Shown: positions 948 through 36,171 of the stretch, one piece after another | How the letters are laid out: each line of letters begins with the position of its first letter | Position numbering within the stretch: the first letter of the stretch is position 1 | Assembly (NCBI GenBank): GCA_027603945.1 | Contig: JADIIU010000007.1 | Location: forward strand, 124,001-188,000 | Direction of reading: 5' to 3' | Length of the DNA stretch: 64,000 bases | DNA from: Terramyces sp. JEL0728 | Taxonomy: Eukaryota > Chytridiomycota > Chytridiomycetes > Rhizophydiales > Terramycetaceae | The notes under the pieces: model-generated | What the model was told of the DNA's origin: nothing | The model's database searches: none | Seen by the model: only the letters and a program-made list of their open reading frames with translations | Made by a program: the position numbers and the translations under genes

Positions 948-1339
948 ATGGCACTCAAATTTAACTCTTGAACAATACAAAGAAATCATTAGAACGAACC
1001 CATTGGTGTTTGTAAAAGTAGGAGCAACCTGGTGCGCACCATGCAAAGTAATCAAACCGATATTCCATGGTATGCTTGGAAGATGAATTCATGATATGTT
1101 CATCTTGCCAAATCCCAGCAAGTCATGAACATCCAGCTGATAGATTCAAGGAATGCTTAACCATGGATGACTTTGACAAAGCGCAGATCTACACTCAACT
1201 CAAATCTAGAGTCAAATGGTTAATGTCTCTGGAGTTCTGTAAATTGGACGAAGAGCAAGTTACAAAGTTGTACCTCGACTTGAAAGGAGATAGAAAAGGC
1301 CTTCTTAAAGCACTGAAAGGAGAAGCAAAAGAAGAATAA
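948..1339 (+). pseudogene. Decayed copy of the neighbouring thioredoxin-like gene
   Basis: This is a degenerate paralogue of the gene at 1551-2213. After the ATG at 948 a 2-nt deletion relative to the intact copy shifts the frame to an early TGA. In the shifted frame the active-site region is still readable (TWCAPCKVIKP). The sequence then jumps to the far C-terminal domain (DEFMICSSCQIPA ... LYLDLKGDR), so about 100 codons covering the rest of the thioredoxin fold and the first CxxC of the C-terminal domain are missing. The 90-codon remainder still runs open to a TAA at 1337-1339. The frameshift plus internal deletion make a working thioredoxin unlikely; use as a truncated protein cannot be excluded. 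Confidence 0.75.
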
Positions 1340-1550
1340 AGGAAATACAAATGTATTTTGCAGTTTTGATATATTGTATGAATAGAGTTAGCTGGAGTAC
1401 CTGGCAGGTGAGAAACACAAAGAAACTCTAGCCCTATCATTAGGTGACAGGCGTGAGTCAGACCAGTCACCGCCAAGATTCTTTGAGATATGCATCATCA
1501 ATGTCATCAGATAAAGTATAAATTGCCAATAATGCAATCACATTATCGCA

Positions 1551-2213
1551 ATGGCAGATTCCAATCTTGCACTTGAAGAATACGAAACAATAATCCAAGC
1601 TAATCCACTAGTATTCGTAAAAGTAGGTGCAACATGGTGTCCGCCATGCAAAATGATCAAACCAATATTCCACAAACTCTCTACAGAGTACGAATCTGCG
1701 AAATTTATTGCGATTGACACGGATACATCCAAAGGCAATGAAGACTTTGCAGCAAAATATGGAGTGCAATCCTACCCAACCTTTTTGTGTTTCCACAACG
1801 GCAAAGTAATGCAATCGCTTATTGGCGCTGACAAGCAAGCACTCGCAAGTATGGTGGAAATGATGACAACATCGCCAACAGACAAATTCGTGTGGTGGGG
1901 ATTCAGCTGTGATGTGTGTGAAAAGTCAAATATCATTGGAAACTTGCTGATCAGCAAACAAGACGAGTTTATGGTTTGTACATCATGCGCGATTCCGGCA
2001 GATAAACCAAAAGATAGTTTTATGGAATGTTCAAACTTTGATGATTATGAACAAGCGCAGTTGTATTCTCAGATGCCTGGAAGAGTTGAATGGTTAATGT
2101 CTTTGGAAAACTGCAAAATGACCAAAGAACAAGTTACCAAATTGTACCTTGATTTGAAAGGAGATCGCATTGCTATACTAAACACAATGCAGGAACCGGA
2201 AGGAAAGTTGTGA
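1551..2213 (+). CDS. Thioredoxin-domain protein with a C-terminal Cys-rich extension
   Basis: A single-exon gene of 220 residues. Residues 1-105 form a complete thioredoxin domain with active site ATWCPPCK and the cis-proline region SYPTFL. From about residue 120 a second domain follows: a WWGF segment, a CDVC pair, then CTSC, then an alpha-helical tail ending in a conserved LYLDLKGDR block. Two CxxC pairs spaced about 27 residues apart suggest a zinc-binding fold. The thioredoxin half should reduce disulfides in the cytosol; the extension I do not recognise. The extension is conserved in the neighbouring pseudogene, arguing that it is an old part of the protein. The ATG at 1551 is the first in frame and lies just before the thioredoxin fold. 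Confidence 0.85.
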   Translation: MADSNLALEEYETIIQANPLVFVKVGATWCPPCKMIKPIFHKLSTEYESAKFIAIDTDTSKGNEDFAAKYGVQSYPTFLCFHNGKVMQSLIGADKQALASMVEMMTTSPTDKFVWWGFSCDVCEKSNIIGNLLISKQDEFMVCTSCAIPADKPKDSFMECSNFDDYEQAQLYSQMPGRVEWLMSLENCKMTKEQVTKLYLDLKGDRIAILNTMQEPEGKL

Positions 2214-13458: not shown

Positions 13459-13531
13459 GCTCCTTTGGCTCAGTTGGTAGAGCGTAGGTCTCATAATCCT
13501 AAGGTCGTGAGTTCGAATCTCACAGGGAGCA
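13459..13531 (+). tRNA. tRNA-Met (CAT anticodon), intronless
   Basis: The sequence folds as a full cloverleaf: acceptor GCTCCTT pairs with AGGGAGC (one G-T pair), D arm GCTCAGTTGGTAGAGC, anticodon arm AGGTCTCATAATCCT with CAT at 13492-13494, T arm GTGAGTTCGAATCTCAC. The discriminator base is A13531. A1-U72 initiator features are absent (pair 1-72 is G-C), so it is an elongator tRNA-Met. No intron is present. Confidence 0.95.
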
Positions 13532-23646: not shown

Positions 23647-25049
23647 TTAGTTTTCAAAGTCGTCAGAGTAACTTGAGCGATTATCATTAGCTATGCTCTC
23701 TGCTTTGCTTACTTGTAAACCATCTGGAGTCTTTCTATCTAGTATTTCAGATCTGGTTGCATAAAGCTCTAATTTTTCTATTGGAACGTCAATCATGTTT
23801 GGAGAAACTGATTTTGCCGAGACTGCCATGCTTGGTTTGAAAATGTTTGTTTTCTTTTCCTCCAAAGTTGGTGTATCCTTTGACTCGTTGATTACTTCTG
23901 GTTTAGCCAGCGATATAGTTACTACTGGGGTTCTTGTCTTTTCTATCTGCAATTCATCAATATCAACAATTTTTGAAAGCGGAACATGGCCTGGCTTGTA
24001 CTTTGATTTTGTAGGATGAAATTTTGAAGTCGATTTCAAAGATATTTTTGAAGTAACCGAAACAGAATCGTCGTCATTTCCAAGGTGTGCGACCAACAGA
24101 GGATTAACATTTCGTTCTCGTTCCTGGTATTAATTGAAAGTACGTGGAGACAATTGGTTAATCGAATTACTTCAGCTTTCGAGACATCTAATTCTTTGAT
24201 CAATTTGCTGATTTTGGTTTTTAACGCGATTACTTCTCGTAGTTTCATTTCTTCCCCCTTTTCCAATAATGTTTGAAGCGACTTGTTAGATTTGCAATAC
24301 CTCGATTTTTGCATAGCATTGTTTCAGTCCTGCTTCATGCTGCAAGGTCTTTTCGTTTTGAATAACTGCATCAGGGGATTCGTATTGCTTCAATCTAGCT
24401 TTCAAGTGTTGGGCTCTGACTTGAAGCCTGTGATATTCTTCTGCTTGTGAAATAGAGTTCTTTTCCAGCAACATCTGCTTTTCTAGTGACCTTTGTCGAT
24501 CGATCTACCTTAATTCAAAAACTACTCTTGTTACGCGCAATTCCTCATTCATTGCTTTAAATACTTTGGGGAAATCTCCCTGTTCCTTGTTTAGAGCCTG
24601 CAATCCTTTTTCCTGCCTTGCGTTCACGATTTTCAGCGTCTTCAGTTCCTGTTGTAACCTGTGAATTTGAAGTTTTTGTTCGTCGTTTACACTTATTAGT
24701 CTCGTTATTTCCATAAACGACGTACTGGCAATATTTGCATAATCTGGATGCTTTATCTTTTGCTTTGGTTTGACTTTTAGACTAATCTGCGAACAGGGCT
24801 TTGCTATTCTCGGCGGTTTAAAGTCTTCATCTCTTTTTAGTACTGGGACTCTAGTTTCTCCTGATTTAATAACGAATCACGTTTTACTCCTCCTTTCAGC
24901 GGGATATGCAGATCTTTATGGTTTCTATCCTCTTTAAAAGTAAAAGAGGTCAATATTGCGTTTGGTTCAGGCAATGGTGTGATAGATCTTGCTATGCTGA
25001 CTGGTCCTGACACTTCAGACCTCGGGATTTCTCCATTCAAAGTTTCCAT
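23647..25049 (-). CDS. Lebercilin-like ciliary coiled-coil protein
   Basis: Five exons with four introns of 19-21 nt (first at 24861-24880) give 440 residues. After a polar N-terminus of about 100 residues comes a coiled coil with the lebercilin-domain pattern: LQQELKTLKIVNARQEKGLQ followed by NEELRVTR, then long helical repeats (LKARLKQYESPDAV, KLIKELDVSKAEVIRL). The last 150 residues are low in structure, ending SSYSDDFEN. Lebercilin (LCA5) binds the intraflagellar transport machinery at the ciliary axoneme. Assignment rests on the RQEK-type block and coiled-coil layout, so lebercilin-like rather than orthologue is claimed. Confidence 0.72.
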
Positions 25050-25596: not shown

Positions 25597-26526
25597 TTAA
25601 GTATTCACCCACTTGAGGAAGCTTTGAGGGTCTGTAAAAGCTTCTGGGAATGAAGGATCGTTAGCCGTCGTTGGTGGGCTGTTGTAATAAGCGGGGGTTG
25701 GTTGAATTGGAGTAATTAAATTTTCCAAAAAGGTATCAGCAGAAACAGGCGTCTCATTGAACTCTGTCTTGATACCAATGTAATTTGGAGACTGCTTTGG
25801 AGCAACGGAATACTGAGTGTAGCAATCAGCTCCAAATTGAGTGTATTTAGGAGTTTCTAAATCATAATTTGTGGGGGATGGATAGCAGTATGTTGGGGTT
25901 TGTCTAAGCGGAGAGTTTCTGTTGTCATAGTACGATGGAAACGGAACTACAGTTAATAACAAATTACCTCCAAGCTGAATATCCAAGATTTGCTTGTATT
26001 CTTGAGGGAACCGTTGAACCAGGTCTGATCTTTTTCCAATAAACGATAAAGGAGGCGTTGGAACAGTATCAAAAACACTAGTTACAGGTTCTTGAGGCGG
26101 AGCGAATTTTGTATGTGCTTGAAATTTAGGAGCGGTATAAGCTAAATCAGGAGTGTCAGATAAAGCGATTCCAGAATCAGGACAGACAGGAGTAGTGATT
26201 GGAGTGATTTTGGAAAAGGTATCGTATGGCGAATGTGCTTCCCTTTCTTCAGCCTCTTCTTGATGGTCCGAAAAATCTTCTCTATTTTCAGGAGAGTCTG
26301 GAGAATAGCTGGCAGGCCGTTTTGCTTTTGCTCTTCTATTTTGAAACCAGATTTGGATGGATCGGGAGGTTTTGTTCAAGTCCCTAGCAAGCTCTTCCCT
26401 TAATTGTTTATTTGGCTTAATAATTCCTGATTCATAAATAGCAACTAATCTTTCGGAAGCTTCAGGTGAAAAACGGATTCGTGGTACCCTGCCGTTTGGT
26501 AAGCTGAGTCTTGCTGGGTTGTACAT
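25597..26526 (-). CDS. Homeodomain transcription factor
   Basis: A single exon of 309 residues. A homeodomain lies at about residues 14-73: RIRFSPEASERLVAIYES in helix 1, KQLREELARDL in helix 2 and the recognition helix SIQIWFQNRRAKAKR, with invariant W, F, N and R present. It is a typical 60-residue (non-TALE) domain, most like fungal PHO2-type factors. The remaining 230 residues are low-complexity, rich in Pro, Thr, Ser and Tyr, with an acidic stretch (EEAEEREA) just after the domain that may activate transcription. It is flanked by the two longest gene-free stretches of the window, fitting a more complexly regulated gene. Confidence 0.93.
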   Translation of the reverse strand: MYNPARLSLPNGRVPRIRFSPEASERLVAIYESGIIKPNKQLREELARDLNKTSRSIQIWFQNRRAKAKRPASYSPDSPENREDFSDHQEEAEEREAHSPYDTFSKITPITTPVCPDSGIALSDTPDLAYTAPKFQAHTKFAPPQEPVTSVFDTVPTPPLSFIGKRSDLVQRFPQEYKQILDIQLGGNLLLTVVPFPSYYDNRNSPLRQTPTYCYPSPTNYDLETPKYTQFGADCYTQYSVAPKQSPNYIGIKTEFNETPVSADTFLENLITPIQPTPAYYNSPPTTANDPSFPEAFTDPQSFLKWVNT

Positions 26527-33453: not shown

Positions 33454-34767
33454 TTAGAGCTCTTCATGTTTAACTTTTTCCTTCTTTAGTTTTGGCTCAA
33501 GAGTGAAAGAGGTCATTCCTAATCCGGCGCTAGTAGCTTCCAAGAAGGATGAAATAGATGATTCGTCAAATGCAGTTTTCAACACCCTGTAGGATTTCCT
33601 TGGGTAATTCAAAGCCAACATTGAAGGGTACATATCACTAACATCAAAATCTCTAATTAATTTAGAGCCGGTTTCAATTGCATTTATCCACACAAAGTTG
33701 TAAAGGTTTTTTTGATAGTACTTTTTCTTGATGGTTTGGACGACAGCAATTTGGTCATTCCAAGCTTTCGTGCTTTCTGGATAGTCTGGCTCGTGGGTCA
33801 AGAATGAAATAATGCAAGTCTTGTCGGCCATGCATAGCTTTTTGAGGTCATTTTGAGATTTGATTTCTGGAATAGTTGGATCGTCTAATGTGAAAACTAA
33901 TTACATTCTACTTTTGCCTCCTTCTTGTCCTTCTTTTCCTTTTCTTTCTTGTCTTTCTTTTTGTCAGACTTCTTACGTTTGGATGGTGGAGCGTACTTGT
34001 CCAAGAATTCAACAAGCTGGGCCTGCTTGACAATTCCATCGTAAGGAATCACATTAGATCCGTCCTTTGGGAATAACAGAATGGCTGGAAAAGTTTCAAC
34101 TCCCAATTCTGCAACTAATTCGGCATTGGAGCTCTTAACTTCTCCAAATGCTAATCTGTCCAAATATTCAATTGAAAGTGCCTTGAATAGTGGCGGTGTA
34201 GTTTTCTTGTCCGTTACCAACACGACTTTATCCAGTTTATCGTTCTAGATTAGTTTCAAGTACAGATTTCTTAAACTCATCCAAAGCAACTGCTTTCTTG
34301 TGATTTTGCCCGATCTTGGCTACGTGTTTGTTGGGGATCATTGGCAATACTGCATCCATCATTGCTTTGGCAGTACGCTCTCCCTTGTAATCTATAGTAA
34401 ATACTCATGTACCCTGAGGCATCCCCTTTGCTCCTGCTGGGAAAATCTTTAATGTTGGGAATCCTTGAACTCCATATTGACCACACAGTGGTTGATTGGC
34501 TTTGTCATCGCAATCAACATTGACCAATTTAACCAATCCCTTCAATTTCGCCGCTGCTTGATGATAATCTGGTTTCATTGCATTACAATGACCACACCTG
34601 GATGAAAAAAGGGCTTACCATGCTACAGTTAGTCAGCAATTACGAGCGTAAAACATCACAAGCACTACCCCAGGTTCAGACAGAACGGCGTCTTTGAAAT
34701 CTCGATGCGAGGCAGGAACTACACTTGCCAGTACAGCAGTTAGAGCTACTAGTAATTTGGCGATCAT
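33454..34767 (-). CDS. ER protein disulfide isomerase with a 4-nt microexon in the active site
   Basis: Six exons with introns at 34623-34643, 34598-34618, 34392-34412, 34245-34263 and 33885-33904 (19-21 nt) give 403 residues. A signal peptide (MIAKLLVALTAVLASVVPA) leads into a thioredoxin domain whose active site FYAPWCGHC is assembled from three exons: ...GCTC, the 4-nt exon CATG, and GTGTGG.... YGVQGFPTLKIFP follows. A second thioredoxin-like domain lacks CxxC (FPAILLFP), then a Lys-rich linker (KKDKKEKEKKDKK) and a third domain (DKTCIISFL). It ends KHEEL, an HDEL-like ER-retrieval signal. The arrangement resembles PDIA6/MPD1-type enzymes with one active domain. Confidence 0.93.
34619..34622 (-). 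other. 4-nt microexon (CATG) in the PDI gene
   Basis: On the minus strand the sequence runs ...GCTC, intron GTAATTGCTG...CTGTAG, then CATG, then intron GTAAGCCC...ATCCAG, then GTGTGGTCATTG. Joining C+CA and TG+G encodes Pro-Trp of the conserved APWCGHC site. Skipping CATG shifts the frame and hits a stop, and retaining either intron gives an early stop. Both flanking introns are 21 nt. Confidence 0.85.
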
Positions 34768-34841: not shown

Positions 34842-36029
<1,188 letters not shown>

Positions 36030-36171
36030 CTTTGAGAATCACGACTTAATAAACCGCATTTATCCCTCATTTATACGAGCTGCATGAGATTCCTTGGTAG
36101 CCAACTTCCAGTATCATAGGACCTCTACAGTATTCATATCCTCGGATGTCCGAATAATTAATAATAGTTTA

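Follow-up and report, generated by a model that had tools for sequence, protein, structure and literature searches.

An apparent four-nucleotide exon at the active site of a protein disulfide isomerase gene, and candidate tiny exons between introns of about 20 nt, in the chytrid Terramyces sp. JEL0728

The tetranucleotide CATG, which lies between two 21-nt introns in a protein disulfide isomerase (PDI) gene of the Rhizophydiales chytrid Terramyces sp. JEL0728, is very probably a real, constitutively included coding exon of a functional gene, spliced intron by intron. The gene is located in a 64-kb stretch of contig C7, hereafter the window, of a genome of 15.0 Mb in 231 contigs. Its parts, and candidate tiny exons elsewhere in the genome, are collected in Table 1.

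Table 1. The PDI gene and candidate tiny exons of Terramyces sp. JEL0728 (positions of the first eleven rows are those of the window; elsewhere, C numbers denote contigs)
Feature	Position	Strand	Remarks
PDI exon 1	34644..34767	-	124 nt; runs from the start codon to the first base (C) of the FYAP Pro codon
PDI intron 1, GTAATTGCTGACTAACTGTAG	34623..34643	-	21 nt; branch motif CTAAC
PDI microexon CATG (putative)	34619..34622	-	4 nt; supplies the last two bases of Pro (CA) and the first two of Trp (TG) in APWCGHC
PDI intron 2, GTAAGCCCTTTTTTCATCCAG	34598..34618	-	21 nt; branch motif TTCAT (weaker), with the branch A 5 nt from the end
PDI exon 3	34413..34597	-	185 nt; first base is the G that completes the Trp codon, followed by CGHC
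PDI intron 3	34392..34412	-	21 nt
PDI exon 4	34264..34391	-	128 nt
PDI intron 4	34245..34263	-	19 nt
PDI exon 5	33905..34244	-	340 nt
PDI intron 5	33885..33904	-	20 nt
PDI last exon	33454..33884	-	PDIA6-like C-terminal domain, through stop codon
11-nt exon CATGGTGTGGA, PDI domain L008	C49:2602-2592	-	second intron after Gly codon; sole model giving FYAPWCGHCKS
6-nt exon for Cys-Gly, PDI L074	C20:137794-137799		introns before TGT and after GGA
1-nt exon G, cytochrome b5	C92:23531		needed for FEEIGHSDD
2-nt exon AG, Rap/Ras GTPase	C16:141956-141955	-	QFIEFYDP vs FVEKYDP of Rap1A
4-nt exon GACT, SAM-domain protein	C57:29011-29014		Pfam SAM_1, 1.9e-6
5-nt exon CGAGG, homogentisate dioxygenase	C9:149480-149484		VIPRGIRF vs VIQRGMRF
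Abutting introns, ARL2 gene	C1 from 92376	-	AG/GT, nothing between
Abutting introns, RRM protein (L086)	C44:11752		AG/GT, nothing between
Formin gene (L029-L031)	C106:23248-27781	+	Pfam Drf_GBD, Drf_FH3, FH2
Pro-rich gene (L032)	C17:67002-69000	+	four ACC and two ACCACC exons between introns of ~20 nt
Pro-rich gene (L033)	C106, about 2900-900	-	ACC/ACCACC exons between introns of ~20 nt

The PDI Gene and Its Probable Four-Nucleotide Exon

With five introns removed from the minus strand, the gene encodes a predicted product of 403 amino acids that contains FYAPWCGHC, in which C+CATG+G is read as CCA TGG, the Pro-Trp of the PDI active site. With the microexon included, the product carries the domains of a PDIA6-type PDI, namely Pfam PF00085 (Thioredoxin; 4e-33) and PF24541 (PDIA6-like C-terminal domain; 5.4e-20). 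A sequence-only reading of the window had described two 21-nt introns flanking CATG, and the sequence is indeed so arranged, with the gene on the minus strand. That reading had also held CATG to be needed for FYAPWCGHC, and this was borne out by an enumeration of splice models between FYA and CGHC (donors GT, GC or AT; acceptors AG or AC; introns of at least 10 nt; one or two introns). Three single-intron and fourteen two-intron models were open, and among these 17 the CATG exon model was the only one to yield APWCGHC. Its further claim, that skipping or retention destroys the enzyme, agrees with splicing in silico, where the product stops early if CATG is skipped or if intron 1, intron 2 or both are retained. 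We strongly infer that CATG is included constitutively, as the reading frame and the catalytic motif would demand.

The putative exon has the size and position of a microexon, being internal, no longer than 15 nt and bounded by canonical GT-AG introns with the usual branch distance. Under the intron model described below, intron 1 scores 11.5 (95th percentile of 214 called introns), while intron 2 scores 4.9, under the calling cut-off of 6, with its TTCAT at the usual distance. CATG is also a palindrome, as had been pointed out, but a trivial one, since the codons CCA TGG dictate the sequence and the symmetry carries no added meaning.

Head to head with the PDI gene lies a ferrochelatase-like gene, recognised by eye (window 34847-36030, plus strand), with introns of its own of about 20 nt. 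The window also holds a 309-amino-acid open frame with a homeodomain-like stretch, likewise identified by eye (25597-26526, minus strand), and a tRNA gene found with Rfam (13459-13531, plus strand).

Public Gene Models at the Tiny Exons

The public protein HDV01_006786 of Terramyces sp. JEL0728 is 97% identical to the spliced PDI over its full length. In the public Terramyces model the first donor is spliced to an acceptor 75 nt downstream, at the cost of PWCGHCNAMKP. The PDI model of Boothiomyces sp. JEL0866 reads GVVFVMCGHC, without FYAPW, and that of Boothiomyces macroporosus begins downstream of the active site, while APWCGHC is present in the PDI of Globomyces pollinis-pini. Among 24 aligned PDI sequences, APWCG is found in all relatives whose model covers the site, except for the broken Terramyces and Boothiomyces models. 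From these broken protein models we infer that the PDI microexon is common to the two genera.

In another example, the cytochrome b5 model of Boothiomyces sp. JEL0838 is without GHSDDAR, a segment present in Globomyces and Entophlyctis, at the place of the 1-nt exon of Terramyces. For the formin discussed below, no match labelled Terramyces or Boothiomyces occurs among the 120 listed of 742, some of which are unlabelled, and the length range leaves out models that are short and broken; this absence fits broken public models but is no proof of them. Public models of Terramyces and its relatives lose an active site in the one case (PDI) and a segment of a heme protein in the other (cytochrome b5).

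Introns at Active-Site Codons

Three other PDI domains of the genome (L002 on C2; L003 and L008 on C49) have one intron exactly at the position of PDI intron 1, in phase 1 of the Pro codon and before CATGG. Since these domains have it in common, the position of intron 1 is apparently old, with intron 2 a probable later gain 4 nt downstream. Candidate small exons of 11 and 6 nt occur at the active sites of L008 and of a further PDI, L074, and the thioredoxin L007 (C3) has an intron inside CGPC. In L001, L004, L005 and L006, CxxC is uninterrupted by introns. To judge from these gene structures, the active-site codons of PDI and thioredoxin genes have taken introns repeatedly. A second thioredoxin-type gene, with two thioredoxin-domain matches, is present in the window at 961-1856 (plus strand).

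Ultra-Short Introns as the Genomic Background

Introns were sampled in 264 kb, comprising the window and C1:1-200000. Candidates were defined by GTA, a branch motif and AG, with the reversed sequence as control, and those of 19-21 nt numbered 70 in the window (11 reversed) and 238 in the full sample (38 reversed). A simple model trained on these candidates and combined with codon usage, applied at a cut-off of 6, called 214 introns in the 264 kb and a single one in the reversed sequence. Nearly all of these were 19-21 nt long (211/214; 212/214 at 18-21 nt), and in 206 of the 214 the branch A stood 5 or 6 nt before the intron end. The called introns, being mostly 18-21 nt, are thus ultra-short in the manner of nucleomorph introns, although 10 of the 32 introns in the formin FH1 stretch measure 22-23 nt.

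Intron lengths form a single sharp peak, at 19-22 nt. Above 23 nt the forward counts are flat and exceed the reversed control (for example, 44 vs 11 at 47-60 nt), an excess that may come from mispaired real sites in real coding DNA. Because of it, longer introns are possible, and the idea that intron length serves as a ruler is an unproven hypothesis.

Searches for Closely Spaced Introns

At a cut-off of 4.5, which admits 482 candidate introns forward and 200 reversed in the 264 kb, two pairs of introns lay 0-12 nt apart, those of PDI and of ARL2, the latter with nothing between, as against none in the reversed sequence. The PDI pair drops out at a cut-off of 6 because of the score of its second intron. 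On the assumption of a coding fraction of roughly 70%, random placement of the 291 candidates obtained in the 264 kb at the loosest intron cut-off (19 reversed) would be expected to produce about three exons shorter than 7 nt. With two seen against about three expected, tiny exons show no sign of having been purged, and special selection need not be invoked for any of them.

When 0-12-nt exons were sought across the genome with a loose pattern, there were 58 matches against 81 in the control, so that the pattern is useless as a count. Reading of 40 loci around pattern matches yielded 15 with a candidate pair, of which five were accepted (L050, L058, L061, L067 and L069) and ten set aside (L041, L043, L045, L049, L051, L054, L059, L065, L066 and L070). 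Two of the latter, L059 (C11:199670-200070) and L070 (C106:500-900), lie near two contig ends and share nearly the same Pro-rich intron-array stretch, as would a duplicated gene or an assembly overlap. Stricter patterns for tiny exons gave 21 matches genome-wide, roughly half of which fall in Pro-rich array genes, vs 2 in controls. Among eight further candidates (L074-L081), L074 was convincing and five were without a pair; in L076 and L081 the frame is open also when an intron is kept or nothing is spliced.

Putative Tiny Exons in Other Genes

Beyond PDI, putative exons of 1, 2, 4 and 5 nt were located in genes for a cytochrome b5, a Rap/Ras GTPase, a SAM-domain protein and a homogentisate dioxygenase. 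For each of these, as for the 6- and 11-nt PDI exons, exactly one of the two-intron models recovers the conserved sequence, and none of the single-intron models does so. The cytochrome b5 with its 1-nt exon aligns without a gap at that exon to a solved cytochrome b5 structure (E 8.4e-29), and the Rap/Ras and homogentisate dioxygenase products likewise show no gap at the tiny exon against solved structures. The earlier suggestion that CATG would be among the smallest exons known is not supported, for 1-nt exons are described in Arabidopsis (PMC4674806) and Fusarium (PMC12940212), and exons of 1, 2 and 3 nt apparently occur in this same genome.

CATG, which came through all the sequence tests applied, fits best as one of a size series among introns of about 20 nt, and the series may extend to zero. 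In the ARL2 and RRM genes two introns abut, and both halves score as introns, although each pair could equally well be a single intron of 40-41 nt, which would give the same protein. A strict pattern for abutting introns had 10 matches genome-wide vs 2 reversed. It is possible that the ARL2 and RRM pairs are removed in two steps, as recursive zero-length exons.

Arrays of Putative Three-Nucleotide Exons in Proline-Rich Genes

The 952-nt FH1 stretch of the formin gene appears to hold 32 introns of 20-23 nt, which make up 676 nt of the total, and the tiny exons between them comprise 22 of 3 nt (21 ACC and one CCC) and one of 6 nt. The sole CCC exon rests on a 23-nt intron near 24970 that the automatic model misread and that was added by hand. 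Every 3-nt exon ends one Pro codon and opens the next. In the CCC exon, as in one GCC among eight 3-nt exons called in another gene, the wobble base alone is changed; positions 2 and 3 of the formin 3-nt exons are invariant, while between intron cores the median pairwise identity is 0.5. CC precedes the donor in 32/32 introns of the FH1 stretch, yet C precedes it in only 8% of the 238 candidate introns of the 264-kb sample, and, such donors being rare, ACC does not represent a splice consensus.

For exons of 3 nt the reading frame offers no check, and the proline runs of the protein were used instead. With all tiny exons included, the formin has runs of 8, 8, 8, 8, 8, 7, 7, 5 and 5 prolines; without the 3- and 6-nt exons these become 6, 4, 5, 4, 5, 4, 4, 3 and 5. 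At least four runs of exactly eight prolines occur in 15 of the 26 formin relatives examined. For example, the runs are 9, 9, 8, 8, 8, 8, 7 and 5 in Batrachochytrium dendrobatidis and 8, 8, 8, 8, 8, 7 and 5 in Gaertneriomyces. The other 11 differ, some having 7s or 9s and some being short or without a run of 5. Runs keep their length even though they differ in how many tiny exons they contain, which argues that every formin unit is spliced in.

Some units are nearly identical (25306 and 25332; 25017 with 25040 vs 25162 with 25185), and these point to an origin by tandem duplication of single units and of blocks. A strict pattern of two consecutive 3-nt exons, the first starting with A, had 10 matches vs 2 reversed; all are ACC, nine in the formin and one on C17. 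With a first exon starting with C or G, the pattern found one match vs one in the control each. Similar arrays are seen in two further Pro-rich genes. No Pfam match at E 0.1 was obtained for the C17 protein or for the C-terminal portion of the product of the minus-strand C106 gene, while the N-terminal portion of the latter had one at 0.013, below the family cut-off.

Alternative Readings

It is very unlikely that the 46-nt region at the PDI site, or 30 nt of it, is one intron, and that what is left encodes a degenerate or non-catalytic PDI. Some relatives of PDI do lack CxxC, and one of the three single-intron models that stay open is FYAPLFSSRCGHC, with a 30-nt intron. None of the three gives APWCGHC, however, and removal of all 46 nt shifts the frame and brings an early stop, while the 30-nt intron would have to use TAAG as its acceptor and would belong to a length class that shows no peak. 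The conservation of APWCG in the aligned relatives with intact models likewise speaks against the loss of the motif. Still harder to credit is an assembly or sequencing error, or a pseudogene, that mimics the microexon. There is one assembly, and the public protein comes from the same contig and is not independent of it, but CATG is flanked by two complete introns of normal size and signals, the rest of the PDI is intact over its whole length, the same structure recurs in unrelated genes, and the Boothiomyces models break at the same site.

An unlikely but less improbable reading is that the tiny exons are real and regulated, such that skipping or retention switches off PDI or varies the length of the formin proline runs. 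The weakness of PDI intron 2 would suit regulation, as would the symmetry of the formin 3-nt exons, any of which could be skipped at the cost of one proline with the frame kept. Full inclusion nonetheless reproduces the run lengths usual in other chytrids even where the number of tiny exons per run differs, and skipping would need introns of at least 43 nt, again a class without a peak.

A Possible Mechanism

Constitutive splicing of the tiny exons, the preferred reading, suggests a splicing machinery that measures introns and sets almost no lower limit on exon size. Each intron of about 20 nt would be defined as a unit in its own right (intron definition), and the introns would be excised in succession; after removal of intron 1, the microexon would just form the tail of an ordinary exon, with the next donor directly after it. 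If splice-site pairing is largely confined to distances of about 18-23 nt, a junction between donor 1 and acceptor 2 (46 nt in PDI, at least 43 nt in the arrays) would be disfavoured. Intron length would then act as the ruler, exon length would be nearly irrelevant, and a tiny exon would not be skipped. The sequence-only reading had remarked that a 4-nt exon leaves no room for simultaneous exon definition, which is probably true but immaterial, since introns of such a length, about 20 nt, suggest intron definition and removal one by one. As for their origin, a tiny exon may be left when a new intron inserts close to an existing one, and in proline tracts such exons may arise as an intron and its codon are copied together.

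Taken as a whole, the following account seems to us a fairly likely one. The genome would have a fixed intron ruler of about 18-23 nt and no minimum exon; exons of 1-6 nt would be constitutive and abutting introns removed in two steps; runs of single-codon exons would build the formin FH1 region, whose proline runs come out right only with all 22 of the 3-nt exons included; and a Pro codon together with its own intron would duplicate as units of 23-26 nt.

Relation to Known Systems

A constitutive 1-nt exon, for which intron definition and stepwise removal were proposed, is known from APC11 of Arabidopsis (PMC4674806), and conserved 1-nt exons of APC11 and VPS55 with pervasive misannotation have been reported across plants (PMC8831610). 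In the available text of these papers, the plant cases resemble those of Terramyces in that a tiny exon, constitutive there and apparently so here, is lost from public annotation. They differ in that the APC11 introns are far longer (the segment spans 422 nt) and that the exons are single cases, with no 3-nt arrays noted, whereas Terramyces has introns of about 20 nt and arrays. A 1-nt exon in CYP621A of Fusarium, supported by reads and called the first for a fungal gene (PMC12940212), is similar in being a tiny, misannotated exon within a conserved motif of a fungal gene. As far as the accessible text of that paper goes, the Fusarium case concerns one gene family and a 139-nt segment, whereas the Terramyces exons, predicted from genome sequence, form a size series with arrays among introns of about 20 nt.

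Introns of nearly the same minimal size occur in chlorarachniophyte nucleomorphs (18-20 nt, with efficiency dropping at 21-27 nt) and in ciliates (about 25 nt), according to the text available (PMC5014332), and the drop in nucleomorphs is in line with a length ruler. Terramyces, unlike nucleomorphs as described there, would combine ultra-short introns with tiny exons in the nuclear genome of a free fungus. Micro-exon genes of Schistosoma also contain many short exons per gene, down to 3 bp, but the available portion of PMC10526429 gives introns of up to 5 kbp, and the formin, with introns of 20-23 nt, does not share their pattern of short exons among long introns. Finally, stwintrons and recursive splicing, in the source text accessible, involve adjacent introns removed consecutively, and the AG/GT pairs of Terramyces resemble recursive zero-length exons. 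In a stwintron, one intron splits the splice signal of another and nothing between is kept, whereas at the PDI site no signal is split and the bases of CATG are needed and would be kept.

A search of the open-access literature found, among the matches listed, no paper on 20-nt chytrid introns, tandem 3-nt formin exons or Terramyces microexons. Single microexons, even of 1 nt, are already known; the novel aspect here would be the arrays of 3-nt exons and the size series of 0-6 nt.

Significance

Whether there is a floor to exon size, and whether exon definition or enhancers are needed, is an old question that has usually been studied one exon at a time and in genomes with long introns. Terramyces apparently holds a natural series of exons of 0-6 nt, together with arrays of 3-nt exons, between near-uniform introns of 20 nt, and such a series makes intron definition, splicing order and the length ruler directly testable. 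The genome also provides places to study how introns are gained, both beside an older intron and through duplication of an intron plus codon. If the account given above is true, the duplication of 23-26-nt units, each a Pro codon plus its intron, would constitute a route of intron multiplication.
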